In this document: one piece after another, positions 2,025 through 56,516 of the stretch
Position numbering within the stretch: the first letter of the stretch is position 1
Layout of the letters: the number at the start of each line of letters is the position of its first letter
Assembly: GCA_020402865.1 (NCBI GenBank)
Contig: JADBYT010000008.1
Location: 62,001-126,000, forward strand
Length of the DNA: 64,000 nt
Direction of reading: 5' to 3'
From: Bacteroidota bacterium
GTDB lineage: Bacteria; Bacteroidota; Bacteroidia; Palsa-965
Program-made: the position numbers and the translations under genes
Notes under the pieces: generated by a model
What the model saw: only the letters and a program-made list of their open reading frames with translations
Told to the model about the DNA's origin: nothing
Database searches by the model: none

Positions 2025-3509
2025 TCAGTTTATCATCAACTCATCCGTCACCATTATAAAACGTTCATCGCGCAGAATAAATCGCTGCCGACCGATCTGC
2101 ACATACTCTCCGTCCTTCATCGTTCCAAGATTATTGATATCCTGATTTACGGTGTGTAGCGAACCACCAGTTTGCCGCGCCAGAAAGAGGTAATCAATAT
2201 TTACTCCGGTGCGCGATCCGCAAAGGATAATGTGTACAGGGCGGTTCAGCTTTTCGAAAAGTTCGAGATCGCGCGGACTGGCCCAGTTGTCGGCAATGAG
2301 TACAATTTCGGTGGTGGCGGGAAATTGTTTGAGTGCGGCCAGCAGGGCTTCAATGTAGTTTTCGGGAATGTCGCCGCCATCGCCGGCGTGCATGCACTCG
2401 GCTGCTTTGCGGCATACAGTATCAAAATCGCCGCTCATTACCGGATACAGGCCGCCGGTTTTGCCGTTTGTTTTCTGGCCGGTGCGTTTATTATCGCCAT
2501 CGTTAAAAAAGAGGTAATGTTTGCAGCGGCCCGATGCCTGCGTTTGCTCAATCCACGCAAAGAGCTGGGCCGTATAGGGCGACATGCTTCCCGTTACATC
2601 ACACACAATGGCAATGTTGCTCCAGTTGTTTCGCCGCAGCGTACTCATAATTACCGAGTCTGGATTGTGTTTGCTGTAGCCGCTGAGTAAGCGCGAGCGT
2701 GGCCCGGCCGCAAACAGCGAATCTTCCGAAAGCGTAATGGAAAGGCGGCGGCGATGATCCATTACACGCTCGGTATAGGCAATGGTGGTGTGTGCACTGT
2801 CGGTCCAGCGCGCTTCTACCACAGTGCCGTCGCTGTGCGATGCGCGCAGGTAAAAACGCAGGCTGTCGTCGGGAATGCTGCGGCGTATGCGCACAGGCAC
2901 ACCGCCCATTGTTACAATGCCCGTAGTGCCTTTAAGTATTCCGCCGCCGGACGTAGTGCCACTGCTGCCGGTTGTGCCGCCTGTTACCACACTCCCGCCG
3001 TCTCCGGGCGGTTTTCCAAGCAGCGAATCGAGAAAACGCAGCTCTTTGCGCGTAAGTTCGGGCGAGGCTGTTTCGCGCACCACCACCACAAAGCCGTGAA
3101 AAAATGTGCGTCCGCTTGCAGGCGACGTTGCGCCGGTTTGCCCCACCAGCCGCCATTCGGTAAGCGCATTGGCAAATATCGCCGGCACCTGTCGCTGCAA
3201 TTCATCCAGGCGGCGGTTGTTTAATGTTTGCTGGTCAAACCGCGGCGACACCGCAAACTGCGTGTACACCAGATCCACGCGCTCCACCTGTTTACCCCGC
3301 AACGATGCCGCCTGCCGTGCATCCACAAAAGCCGACGAAGCAAACGGCATTTCAAGCCACAACACCTGCCGCCCGGCCAGCACGGCTTCAGGCGAATACT
3401 TCACCGGCTGCAAGCCGGTGCGCGCAAGCTGCGCAGCCACAGCCGCCCGGTTTTGCGCAGGAAGAACTGCACTAAGCATACAGAAAAAACATACAACGGC
3501 AAGGCGCAT
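2025..3509 (-). CDS. Exported VWA-domain protein (paralog 2)
   Basis: Paralog of the downstream 523-1905 gene, 494 residues from the chosen start. An in-frame start exists 81 nt further out, but only ATG at 3509 begins directly with a signal peptide (MRLAVVCFFCMLSAVLPAQ) and has AGGA upstream. It shares the FFHGFVV block and the VWA motifs DVTGSMSPYT (D304 in this numbering), GGDIPENYIEAL and IADNWASPRD. Between the two blocks it carries an extra Gly/Thr/Ser-rich linker and about 90 residues that the paralog lacks. It follows the arylsulfotransferase-like gene on the same strand, so the three may be one transcription unit. Role unknown. Confidence 0.8.
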   Translation of the reverse strand: MRLAVVCFFCMLSAVLPAQNRAAVAAQLARTGLQPVKYSPEAVLAGRQVLWLEMPFASSAFVDARQAASLRGKQVERVDLVYTQFAVSPRFDQQTLNNRRLDELQRQVPAIFANALTEWRLVGQTGATSPASGRTFFHGFVVVVRETASPELTRKELRFLDSLLGKPPGDGGSVVTGGTTGSSGTTSGGGILKGTTGIVTMGGVPVRIRRSIPDDSLRFYLRASHSDGTVVEARWTDSAHTTIAYTERVMDHRRRLSITLSEDSLFAAGPRSRLLSGYSKHNPDSVIMSTLRRNNWSNIAIVCDVTGSMSPYTAQLFAWIEQTQASGRCKHYLFFNDGDNKRTGQKTNGKTGGLYPVMSGDFDTVCRKAAECMHAGDGGDIPENYIEALLAALKQFPATTEIVLIADNWASPRDLELFEKLNRPVHIILCGSRTGVNIDYLFLARQTGGSLHTVNQDINNLGTMKDGEYVQIGRQRFILRDERFIMVTDELMIN

Positions 3510-3591
3510 CTGTCCTAATAATTCCGAACGATCCGAAAAGATACACCACATACACTGAAAACGTTTACCCCTCGGTTTTCGCATCGCCACC

Positions 3592-5316
3592 TCAAATAAC
3601 TTTCAAAATCAGTTTACGCTCAAACTGCCGGTTGGTTTCAGAATACACTTTCACTTCCACGCTGCCCGAAGCACGCTGAATAATATTTTCAGGTATCACA
3701 ATCACCGTTTCACTTCCGGCACCAAGATCAAGCTGCTGCAAAGATTCTGTAACTACTTTCGACGTGTTGCGGTCTGTAAACTGCAGCGTGTAAGCATAAC
3801 TATCAGCCTCTGAACCTTCGTTGGTTACAGCAAAAGCAGTAATACCATTATTACCGGTCATTTGCCGCACAGTAAAAAAACACGGATAAAGCGATGAGGC
3901 ATAATGCACGCGTGTGTGCTGAAACTCCTCAAACAGTTTACTGCGCGGATTCCAGTTTTCGCAGTAGGCCTGCCACACAATGGCTTTATCGGGCGTTACC
4001 TCCAGCACACTCGCCAGCGATCCGCCGCCGATAAGAATATTTCCGTTGCGCAGCATTTCTGCATTGCCATACTTTGTGGCGTTGCGGGTATAACCTGCAT
4101 CGCGCCGCAAGTCAAATTCCCAGAGCGTAATCAGCTCGTTACTACCCGGCTTCATTTGCATGAGTTGTACCGATGAATTCCCTTTGTTACGCAGCGAATC
4201 GCCATTGTTGTTGAACAAAAGCAGCGAATCGCCGTTCAACACATTTACATCATGCTGGTTCGAAAAATTACCCGTGTAGCGGGCCAGCACTTTTCCTGTC
4301 ATCCGCTCAATCTTAAGCACAATGCCAAGCATTCTGAAACCGGCATACACAAACTGCCCCGTGGCATCTGTACTAATACTGCTCAGAAAGGCTTTCGAAT
4401 AGGGCGTACCTCCCTTTCCCGGATTCACAAGTATTTCTTGTTCTTTGAAATAGTTGCGGGATGACCACATCCAGGTTTGCTTCCCCATCCAGTTGTATTC
4501 GGTAATGTAAGGGTAGTTTAACACAACTGTATCGCCGCCGTTTACCACTGTTTTCACCGCTTCATTGCCCAGCGTAAGGTAATTGCCGGCAGCAGTGCGT
4601 ATCAGGTTGCCATGATAATAATCGGTTCCTGAATTTTTGCGGATTGCCTTATTGTTGGGCCCGGTCCACAAAATTTTTCCGTCCACATCAACTTCAAACA
4701 CACTTTGCGCCGCAATAAATGTAAACGTTCCCTGCGGCGTAATCCGCAAATCGCGCACAATATCCCCCCGCCCTATTTTCTCATCTACTGCAGGAACCAC
4801 CCATACTATTTGTCCGTTCCGGTCATAAACCGCCCGTGCAAAATCAATGGCAACAAGACCGCTATCAGAGGTCGTATTTTTTGTTACACGTAAAATATTC
4901 CGTTGCGAATCGTTCCAGTTTTCAACTGCAGTGGTAAACTCGAGATATTGTGATTTTGAAATGGATTTACCTTCCTTGTTCAATGCAATTACCATCCAGC
5001 GGTAACTTGTACCCAGCTTCAGGTTTTTAATCAACGTAGCCGTTGAATAATCATTTTGCTCTGCAACAGTTATATACAGGGGCTCCTGTTTCCCGCGTAA
5101 AACAATTTCTTCCACCACTACCCGGTATTCCACTGCATTTTCCACCGCCGGATATTCAAACATAACCTGCGTATGGTTGAGCGATGCGCCCGGCTCAGGC
5201 ATGTAGGCCGAAACGGGTGTTACGGAAGGACGTGTAAGCACCCCGGAAAGTGTTTGCCGTGGCTGCGCTGCTAGACTAAGCGCATGGAGTAATAGTATGC
5301 TGAATAAATAACGCAT
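3592..5316 (-). CDS. Arylsulfotransferase (ASST)-like exported propeller protein
   Basis: 574 residues from ATG 5316 (MRYLFSILLLHALSLAAQ is a good signal peptide; a TTG lies three codons upstream). Residues about 40-125 look like a fibronectin-type-III module ending LEFTT. The next ~330 residues match the bacterial ASST beta-propeller pattern: GQIVWVVP, DVDGKILW, YYHGNLIRTAAGNYL, YITEYNWMGKQTWMW, NQHDVNVL and GNILIGGG. Characterised ASSTs move sulfuryl groups between phenolic compounds in the periplasm using a histidine; histidines are present (HGN, QHD) but I cannot establish catalytic equivalence. A short Ig-like tail ends the protein; no T9SS sorting domain is seen. Confidence 0.7.
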   Translation of the reverse strand: MRYLFSILLLHALSLAAQPRQTLSGVLTRPSVTPVSAYMPEPGASLNHTQVMFEYPAVENAVEYRVVVEEIVLRGKQEPLYITVAEQNDYSTATLIKNLKLGTSYRWMVIALNKEGKSISKSQYLEFTTAVENWNDSQRNILRVTKNTTSDSGLVAIDFARAVYDRNGQIVWVVPAVDEKIGRGDIVRDLRITPQGTFTFIAAQSVFEVDVDGKILWTGPNNKAIRKNSGTDYYHGNLIRTAAGNYLTLGNEAVKTVVNGGDTVVLNYPYITEYNWMGKQTWMWSSRNYFKEQEILVNPGKGGTPYSKAFLSSISTDATGQFVYAGFRMLGIVLKIERMTGKVLARYTGNFSNQHDVNVLNGDSLLLFNNNGDSLRNKGNSSVQLMQMKPGSNELITLWEFDLRRDAGYTRNATKYGNAEMLRNGNILIGGGSLASVLEVTPDKAIVWQAYCENWNPRSKLFEEFQHTRVHYASSLYPCFFTVRQMTGNNGITAFAVTNEGSEADSYAYTLQFTDRNTSKVVTESLQQLDLGAGSETVIVIPENIIQRASGSVEVKVYSETNRQFERKLILKVI

Positions 5317-5402
5317 CAGAAACAAGGGCCAGGTGAATTGTAGTGTGTGAAGTTACGCAAACTTCAAAAATCCGGCCACTTCCGGTGCGGCATTGCTGCC
5401 AA

Positions 5403-5450
5403 TAAAAACAGCCCGGCAACAAATTTCGCAGCGTTGCACCGGGCTGTTTC
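5403..5450 (-). terminator. Terminator of the YCF48-like gene
   Basis: ACAGCCCGG (5408-5416) pairs with CCGGGCTGT (5439-5447), with an inner CAAC/GTTG pairing. On the minus strand the stem is followed by TTTTTA. It sits between the T9SS cargo gene (stop at 5469) and the ASST-like gene. Confidence 0.8.
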
Positions 5451-5468
5451 ACAAAAGCGGGATGTGCT

Positions 5469-34415: not shown

Positions 34416-34676
34416 AGATATTTTACTTTTTTGGAATCCTTTGTGACAAATACCACGTTTTTTAGCTTAGAAAAAAAGCATAAGTTTTCAACAGATCAAG
34501 CTTAGCACACAAAACGACACTCAACACATTCACTGTAATGAAAACCCTCTATTTACAGCAATTTCCCCAGTAAACGAAGGTTCACAATGCATCAATTTTC
34601 TGTGAATGCGATTACTGGTAAACCCTTATTTAATAGAAAAAACAACGATTAGATAGTATTACTATTGTTTTATGAT
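34416..34676. other. AT-rich intergenic region
   Basis: No credible open frame. Contains the divergent upstream regions of the small membrane protein (minus) and the candidate ncRNA (plus). No tRNA or riboswitch fold was recognised. Confidence 0.4.
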
Positions 34677-34684
34677 TATTTTTG
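34677..34684 (+). promoter_or_regulatory. -7 box for the candidate ncRNA
   Basis: TATTTTTG matches TAnnTTTG and places a start near 34690, just at the first hairpin. No good -33 TTTG is seen at the expected position. Confidence 0.45.
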
Positions 34685-34688
34685 TAGT

Positions 34689-34800
34689 GATTACCGCCCG
34701 GTAATCGAAAAAGGTTTGATGCATTTAAGGGGTTAGGTGCATCAACCATCTTCTCGGAACAGCGCGTTTAAGGGGTTAGACGCGCTGTTTCATTTTTTAT
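34689..34800 (+). ncRNA. Candidate small RNA with twin identical hairpin loops
   Basis: Three consecutive hairpins end in a terminator. A: GATTACC-GCCC-GGTAATC (34689-34706). B: stem of 10 bp with one bulge (34713-34723 with 34738-34747), loop TTTAAGGGGTTAGG. C: 9-bp stem AACAGCGCG/CGCGCTGTT (34758-34766 with 34781-34789), loop TTTAAGGGGTTAGA, then TCATTTTTT. The B and C stems share no sequence, yet their 14-nt loops match at 13 positions, so the loop is what is conserved. The region has no open frame and no gene follows on the plus strand, so this is a free-standing transcript of about 110 nt. I do not recognise the class; loop-mediated binding to a protein or to C-rich target RNA is a guess. 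Confidence 0.6.
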
Positions 34801-51213: not shown

Positions 51214-51398
51214 GGTTTGAATATCTAGCCGGGATTGGAGTGGAAATTAACTAAAACAAAAAAACGGGTAGTACCCCTACGAGGTCTTAAAGACCTCGTA
51301 GGGGTGAAGGCCGGAATTCTATTTTTTGTTTTAGTTAATTGGAACGAAAAGCCCGAGCCAAGCAATTTTTAGCTGCACCATACGGTCCGCTCCTCCTC
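51214..51398 (-). repeat. Nested modular repeat, copy 3 (palindromic core 51245-51340)
   Basis: The outer arms read on the minus strand as GGAGGAGCGGACC...GGCTCGGGCTTTTCGTTCC and CAATCCCGGCTAG, matching copy 2 (56338-56516) in inverse orientation and copy 1 (8152). The core 51245-51340 (96 bp) has terminal inverted repeats AATTAACTAAAACAAAAA/TTTTTGTTTTAGTTAATT. A perfect 16-bp-arm palindrome (ACCCCTACGAGGTCTT, one central base) sits in its middle. It separates the nitronate monooxygenase gene from the membrane-protein gene. No transposase is present. Confidence 0.85.
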
Positions 51399-56337: not shown

Positions 56338-56516
56338 AAGGAGCGAAAGTAGGGTTCATTAAAGTTCCGTTCGGCTCCTGCTTTCCGCTCCAATTAACTA
56401 AAACAAAAATAGAATTCCGGCCTTCACCCCTACGAGGTCTTAAAGACCTCGTAGGGGTACTACCCGTTTTTTGTTTTAGTTAATTTCCGCTGCAATCAGG
56501 GCTAGGTTAAATACCT
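56338..56516 (+). repeat. Nested modular repeat, copy 2 (palindromic core 56392-56485)
   Basis: Outer left arm AAGGAGCGAAAGTAGGGTTC...TTCGGCTCCTGCTTTCCGC and right arm CAATCAGGGCTAGG flank a 94-bp core that is nearly the exact reverse complement of 51245-51340: same terminal inverted repeats, same GAATTCCGGCCTTC and GTACTACCCG flanks, same central palindrome. Differences are one base in each of two homopolymer runs and the central A/T. Short TTTCCGCT repeats flank the core. The two copies are inverted, 5.1 kb apart. Confidence 0.85.

Follow-up and report, generated by a model that had tools for sequence, protein, structure and literature searches.

A putative small RNA family of uncultured Bacteroidia that keeps a G-rich loop on changing stems

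What is encoded by an element that stands alone between protein genes and repeats one loop on two different stems? This question is raised by one locus (copy A) of the window, the whole 64,000-nt stretch of DNA analysed here, which corresponds to bases 62001-126000 of contig C8 in a genome of 4.89 Mb (G000). The first-pass annotation had proposed an unrecognised small RNA. In this study, we found homologs of the element in seven genomes, no match to it in Rfam, and a promoter that recurs at a fixed distance, all of which bear this proposal out. Copy A belongs to a new small RNA family that is ordinary as a kind.

The window locus and its predicted fold

Copy A lies on the plus strand and, as had been noted, is the sole element in a protein-free interval of some 627 nt. 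This gap is bordered upstream by era/der genes and the frame of a small membrane protein on the minus strand, and downstream by the gene of a 412-aa protein with no Pfam family, also on the minus strand. Two hairpins with the same loop had been described here, and they were read directly in the sequence (Table 1); the G-loops of hairpins 2 and 3 are both TTTAAGGGGTTAG. The fold of copy A was far more stable than the folds of shuffled sequences (z-score -7.4). Neighbouring hairpins with stems of six Watson-Crick pairs, loops of 12-14 nt and a common loop 11-mer were found at four places in 1.66 Mb of G000, copy A being one, and at none in five mononucleotide shuffles. The two G-loop hairpins of copy A are not a product of chance. 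The other three places, at L186 (30 and 144), L170 (4389 and 4428) and L237 (11547 and 11648), carry the loops TTCGACAAGCTCA, TGAGTTTATCGAA and TGGCAAAATGCCA, and look like REP-like or direct repeats or palindromes.

Table 1. Coordinates of the element in the window and of neighbouring frames at other loci
Feature	Location	Strand	Details and basis
Bacteroidota -7 promoter element TATTTTTG (TAnnTTTG)	34677..34684	+	12 nt before hairpin 1; direct reading
Hairpin 1, GATTACC-GCCC-GGTAATC	34689..34706	+	7 bp; tetraloop GCCC, closing pair C-G; 5' end of the predicted transcript (fold and stem covariation)
Hairpin 2	34713..34747	+	G-loop TTTAAGGGGTTAGG at 34724-34737; 8 bp, bulged T, 2 bp; fold, covariance-model matches in own and related genomes, pair counts
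Hairpin 3	34756..34791	+	G-loop TTTAAGGGGTTAGA at 34767-34780; stem of the intrinsic terminator
T-run TTTTTT	34793..34798	+	completes the terminator; direct reading and terminator scoring
Predicted small-RNA transcript, ~110 nt	34687..34798	+	start placed from the promoter; predicted from DNA signals
~510-aa TPR-solenoid gene	L040:5738-7288	+	
~510-aa TPR-solenoid gene	L039:2343-3887	-	
~510-aa TPR-solenoid gene	L136:3625-5133	-	
~510-aa TPR-solenoid gene	L160:1501-2979	-	
~510-aa TPR-solenoid gene	L137:4236-5591	-	
~510-aa TPR-solenoid gene	L133:4438-5961	+	
~510-aa TPR-solenoid gene	L135:136-1695	-	
~510-aa TPR-solenoid gene	L042:5407-6873	-	
Tiny frames	L039 ~3988-4057	+	
Tiny frames	L136 ~5248-5458	+	
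Tiny frames	L160 ~3140-3589	+	
Tiny frames	L040	-	~106 nt before the TPR start
Tiny frames	L140		
93-114-aa frames upstream of TPR genes	L149, L154, L142, L150, L146, L285, L144, L145, L135		

Several details of the proposed structure had to be amended. Both stems had been called perfect, which does not hold for hairpin 2 with its bulged T. The promoter box and the 5' hairpin are present as described, and so is a 3' terminator, but the latter is hairpin 3 itself, which was scored as an intrinsic terminator, and not a separate structure. The loop had been taken as single-stranded throughout. In the minimum-energy fold of copy A, however, the flanking UUAA and UUAG pair with each other and leave a GGGG tetraloop. 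At this pairing position, A-U is replaced by G-C in two copies of another genome (G006 e and f), and part of the 14-nt loop may be stem.

Copies, stems and promoters in related genomes

Copies were searched for with a hairpin covariance model and a sequence-only pattern. The family numbers 15 copies, spread over 7 of 12 genomes from one family-level Bacteroidota clade. Four of them are in G000: copy A, copy B on C15, whose three-hairpin layout is identical to that of A, and copies C and D in tandem on C22, with the related loops GTTTAAGGGGTTAA and TTTTTTGGGGTTAA and a separate terminator. A and B each contain the exact 12-mer TTAAGGGGTTAG twice, and these are its only four occurrences in the 4.9-Mb genome. 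G006 carries six copies (a-f), and one copy each was found in G001, G002, G003, G004 and G007; the last genome belongs to another genus, and its copy has two G-loop hairpins, as in A and B. Some copies have a single G-loop hairpin, so that repetition is not required. Within the genus of the window, the element is present in 6 of 7 genomes, the exception (G005) being 66% complete.

The pattern CNCCCG..TTNNGGGGTTA, applied to the 12 genomes with no stem required, recovered nine family loci and four chance matches, compared with two matches in total for the backward control. A strict pattern gave 51 matches over 84,980 species genomes, 46 of which were rejected for lack of stems. The five that had both stems (21-25 pairs; 11 in the next best match) all lie in two Bacteroidota MAGs corresponding to G006 and G003. 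Since only the loop and the pairing are conserved, searching at the level of plain DNA sequence yielded no full-length homolog in 148 relatives. Later models, run on relatives up to class level behind a lossy first-look filter, gave no convincing member outside the clade; more distant copies may have been missed by this filter and by model R1, which misses C and D. The inspected matches of model R3 outside the clade were rejected by their fold, and the others had E values of 0.04-1. Among direct pairs AAGGGGTTA..AAGGGGTTA in 395 genomes of the class, A and B look real, and the other five had no hairpins by eye. No Rfam 15 family exceeded its curated cut-off on the element. These results indicate that this multicopy RNA family is restricted to a single clade of uncultured Bacteroidia at about the rank of family.

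In the usual layout, TAnnTTTG lies 12-13 nt before a 5' hairpin, whose tetraloop is NCNN and in most cases NCCC; then come one or two hairpins with GGGGUYAR in the loop, the last of which is the terminator. The claim that loops are preserved on changed stems had been made dependent on homologs with covarying stems, and such homologs were found. In stems of the hairpin 2 type, 100% of 70 cells were paired (ten distinct rows), with double changes in 6 of 7 pairs; covariation was 1.07, whereas shuffles gave 0.31 and slid controls no more than 0.19. In hairpin 1, 96% of cells were paired over 10 distinct copies, with double changes in 7 of 8 pairs. Both shares of paired cells are inflated by the trimming of alignment rows to hairpins by hand, but trimming alone does not explain the double changes. 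Even the five copies in a common syntenic block differ in the stem (GGG/CCC to GAG/CTC). In contrast to the stems, the loop keeps UU..GGGGU.A invariant, and its conserved motif, (U)UUxxGGGGUYAR, occurs once or twice per molecule. The change of the stems around a fixed GGGGUUA loop suggests that the loop is probably recognised by a partner. That partner is not hairpin 1 of the same RNA: its tetraloop departs from NCCC in G002 (GCTA), G006 e (GCTC) and G006 f (GCCT), which rules out kissing of a C-rich hairpin 1 loop with the G-loop. No conserved micro-ORF was noticed by eye in the element, and its pairing with the anti-SD sequence is weak and variable.

TAnnTTTG is the Bacteroidota -7 consensus (PMC7366714). 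It precedes the first hairpin by 12-19 nt in 9 of the 15 copies, where 0.01 is expected per 30-nt stretch; the distance is 12-13 nt in A, G006 c, G006 d, G001, G003, G004 and G007, and 18-19 nt in C and D. No such motif precedes B and G006 a, e and f, which sit just behind coding genes. The element therefore appears in two settings, as a gene of its own and at the 3' end of mRNAs, and these four copies may be just 3' UTR terminators. At copy A, an own promoter and an intrinsic terminator, both features of intergenic trans-encoded small RNAs, were found together, and conserved secondary structure, another such feature, was found in the covariation of hairpins 1 and 2.

TPR genes and tiny frames beside the element

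A gene for a multicopy protein of about 510 aa, with 27 matches in the clade, is located no more than about 1.5 kb from eight copies (B, G006 a, b, d, e and f, G003, G004). By our own arithmetic (27 genes, ~45 Mb), the chance of such proximity is below 1% per copy. The cases are not all independent, as d, G003 and G004 form one syntenic block and e and f are near-duplicates; at least five events remain. The orientation of RNA and TPR gene is variable. Copies A, C, D and those of G001, G002 and G007 have no TPR neighbour, and in G001 and G002 the RNA is at the same place though the TPR gene is absent. A profile search found the protein family in 22 of 59 relatives, well beyond the range of the RNA. 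No Pfam cut-off was exceeded in the four members scanned. Structure prediction (pLDDT 89.5) gave the protein a TPR-type superhelix that lacks any extra catalytic domain, and its best Foldseek matches were LGN and consensus TPRs (E ~2e-4), with Rap of phage phi3T at E 2.7e-3. A second repeated element was seen in G006 near two TPR genes, at L040 7326 (+) and L136 8229 (-); it reads GAACATCCCY..AAGGG..CAAC...TAGGGGTTTG..GTTGTGTTTG.

Seven of the eight TPR neighbours have a gene for a tiny peptide or a small, possibly secreted protein that diverges from their start; copy A has none. The tiny frames would encode 22-24 aa with the consensus M..I..IL.ALGI.NP...GG. and occur up to four in a row: MSSIVEILKKLGIIVGETNGGD in G006 a, MELIQAILRALGIIGTDGNGGW in b, MNTINAILAALGIVNPIDIGGKP and MSNIINTVLQALGIVNPMDGGGKP in e, four in f, and one near G007:C24. 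The peptide arrays of e and f end with the G-loop element. Another sub-group of TPR genes has a divergent frame of about 93-114 aa with a signal-peptide-like start, and several of these frames share a similar C-terminal end (VAVQDLP / GHEDLP-like); judged from these features, they are possible secreted signals. RRNPP systems, which have been described in Firmicutes and their elements (PMC10075063), characteristically combine a propeptide with a neighbouring TPR receptor. By analogy, the tiny frames and TPR genes are candidate RRNPP-like peptide-receptor pairs in Bacteroidota, and might represent a peptide-signalling system outside Firmicutes. The RNA could itself be part of such a module, together with the TPR receptor and the product of the divergent gene, be it a short peptide or a small secreted protein. 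In that case, its loop would be a binding site for the receptor or for a protein under the receptor's control, and copy A would have become detached from the module. We regard this extension as improbable.

What the loop may recognise

The family, its layout, the covariation, the conserved loop and the promoter and terminator signals are all read from the DNA, and the case for an RNA is strong. We infer that it is transcribed and acts in trans on a partner. Copy A would be a stand-alone small-RNA gene read from its TAnnTTTG promoter; hairpin 1 would protect the 5' end, and hairpin 3 would end the transcript as terminator. The stems would be free to change provided that pairing is kept, while the G-loop, as the conserved working part, would likely serve as recognition site for a partner in trans. 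We put the probability that the element is a structured small RNA recognised through its G-loop at about 0.75, a figure that does not extend to the kind of partner. For the latter, we tentatively favour an RNA-binding protein, with the RNA as decoy or scaffold, over base-pairing to C-rich RNA. This is our best guess because complements of the loop are not enriched, TPR leaders show no consistent pairing, and CsrA and RRM proteins were not found in G000.

Base-pairing would make the RNA an antisense regulator whose GGGGUUAG loop is a seed for CUAACCCC-type mRNA sites, near start codons or elsewhere. A conserved loop on unconserved stems is what a loop-borne seed would give, there is a mild excess of CTAACCC upstream of starts (12 counted, 5.9 expected), and the loops of G006 b and d somewhat exceed shuffles in their pairing to the leader of the adjoining TPR gene. 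However, 5 of 7 such leaders pair no better than shuffles, and the earlier suggestion of a seed for C-rich mRNA found no echo at start codons: with composition modelled, 8.7 occurrences of TAACCCC were expected upstream of the 1190 predicted starts and 8 were counted, and CTAACCCC is absent from -60 to +20 of predicted starts, in a test that covered 34% of the genome and only regions near predicted starts. A raw 3.3-fold enrichment of TAACCC at starts was gone against upstream composition. We consider antisense action possible, if rather doubtful.

The hairpins might also merely end or stabilise transcripts, with no function in trans and a loop that aids folding. A T-run follows the last G-loop hairpin in most copies, and B and G006 a, e and f trail coding genes as noted above. 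But such a cassette is unlikely: in nine copies a promoter immediately precedes the first hairpin with no reading frame between, termination needs no invariant GGGGUYAR, and the inner G-loop hairpin of A and G007 is not the terminator. Very unlikely is a REP- or MITE-like origin, with hairpins spreading as mobile or repetitive DNA. It would account for several dispersed copies per genome, for the C/D tandem, for the near identity of G006 e and f and for the duplicated hairpin in A and B, but the copies have little sequence in common outside the loop, their stems covary and do not drift, and five of them keep one syntenic place across species. Moreover, no transposase gene was noticed among the neighbours examined, no plasmid matched, and two pattern matches in viral contigs were rejected as they had no hairpins.

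A structured small RNA with a recognition loop can be set beside several known systems. Flavo-1 RNA (RF01705) is a structured RNA of the same window, but at separate sites: 51223-51362 (+) and 56370-56507 (-), both barely above the gathering score. A Flavo-1 match at 34535-34591, near copy A, had 13.5 bits and an E value of 9 and is a chance match. The TwoAYGGAY RNA motif, a family in Rfam, likewise has two hairpins with the same conserved terminal-loop sequence; it differs from our element in loop sequence and hosts, and Rfam gave no match to the element.

The element resembles CsrB/RsmZ in that a short G-containing motif, in some cases repeated, is displayed in the hairpin loops of a small RNA whose stems vary. 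It differs in having GGGGUYAR in one or two GGGG loops per copy, whereas CsrA sites are GGA and many. The frozen loop on free stems could be used as a bait in the search for an RNA-binding protein. A CsrA/RsmA gene was found in none of the 12 clade genomes, the control genomes being positive, and an RbpB-type RRM protein was not found in G000. RRM proteins (93-aa frame) are patchy in the clade, with 2 of 12 genomes positive (G001:C161:3065-3274 and G005:C56:16540-16749).

FopS/GibS, the RbpB-associated RNAs of Bacteroides, resemble the element as multicopy paralogous RNAs with Bacteroidota-type promoters and an intrinsic terminator. In FopS, a single-stranded seed at the 5' end is combined with one hairpin, the terminator, and the structure is stated to be deposited in Rfam (PMC11697453). 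No match to FopS/GibS reached the gathering score in Rfam release 15, which may not hold the FopS model. In contrast to these RNAs, the conserved part of our element lies in hairpin loops. The small RNAs of this phylum are known mostly from Bacteroides, and the element adds to them a well-defined RNA family with covariation evidence.
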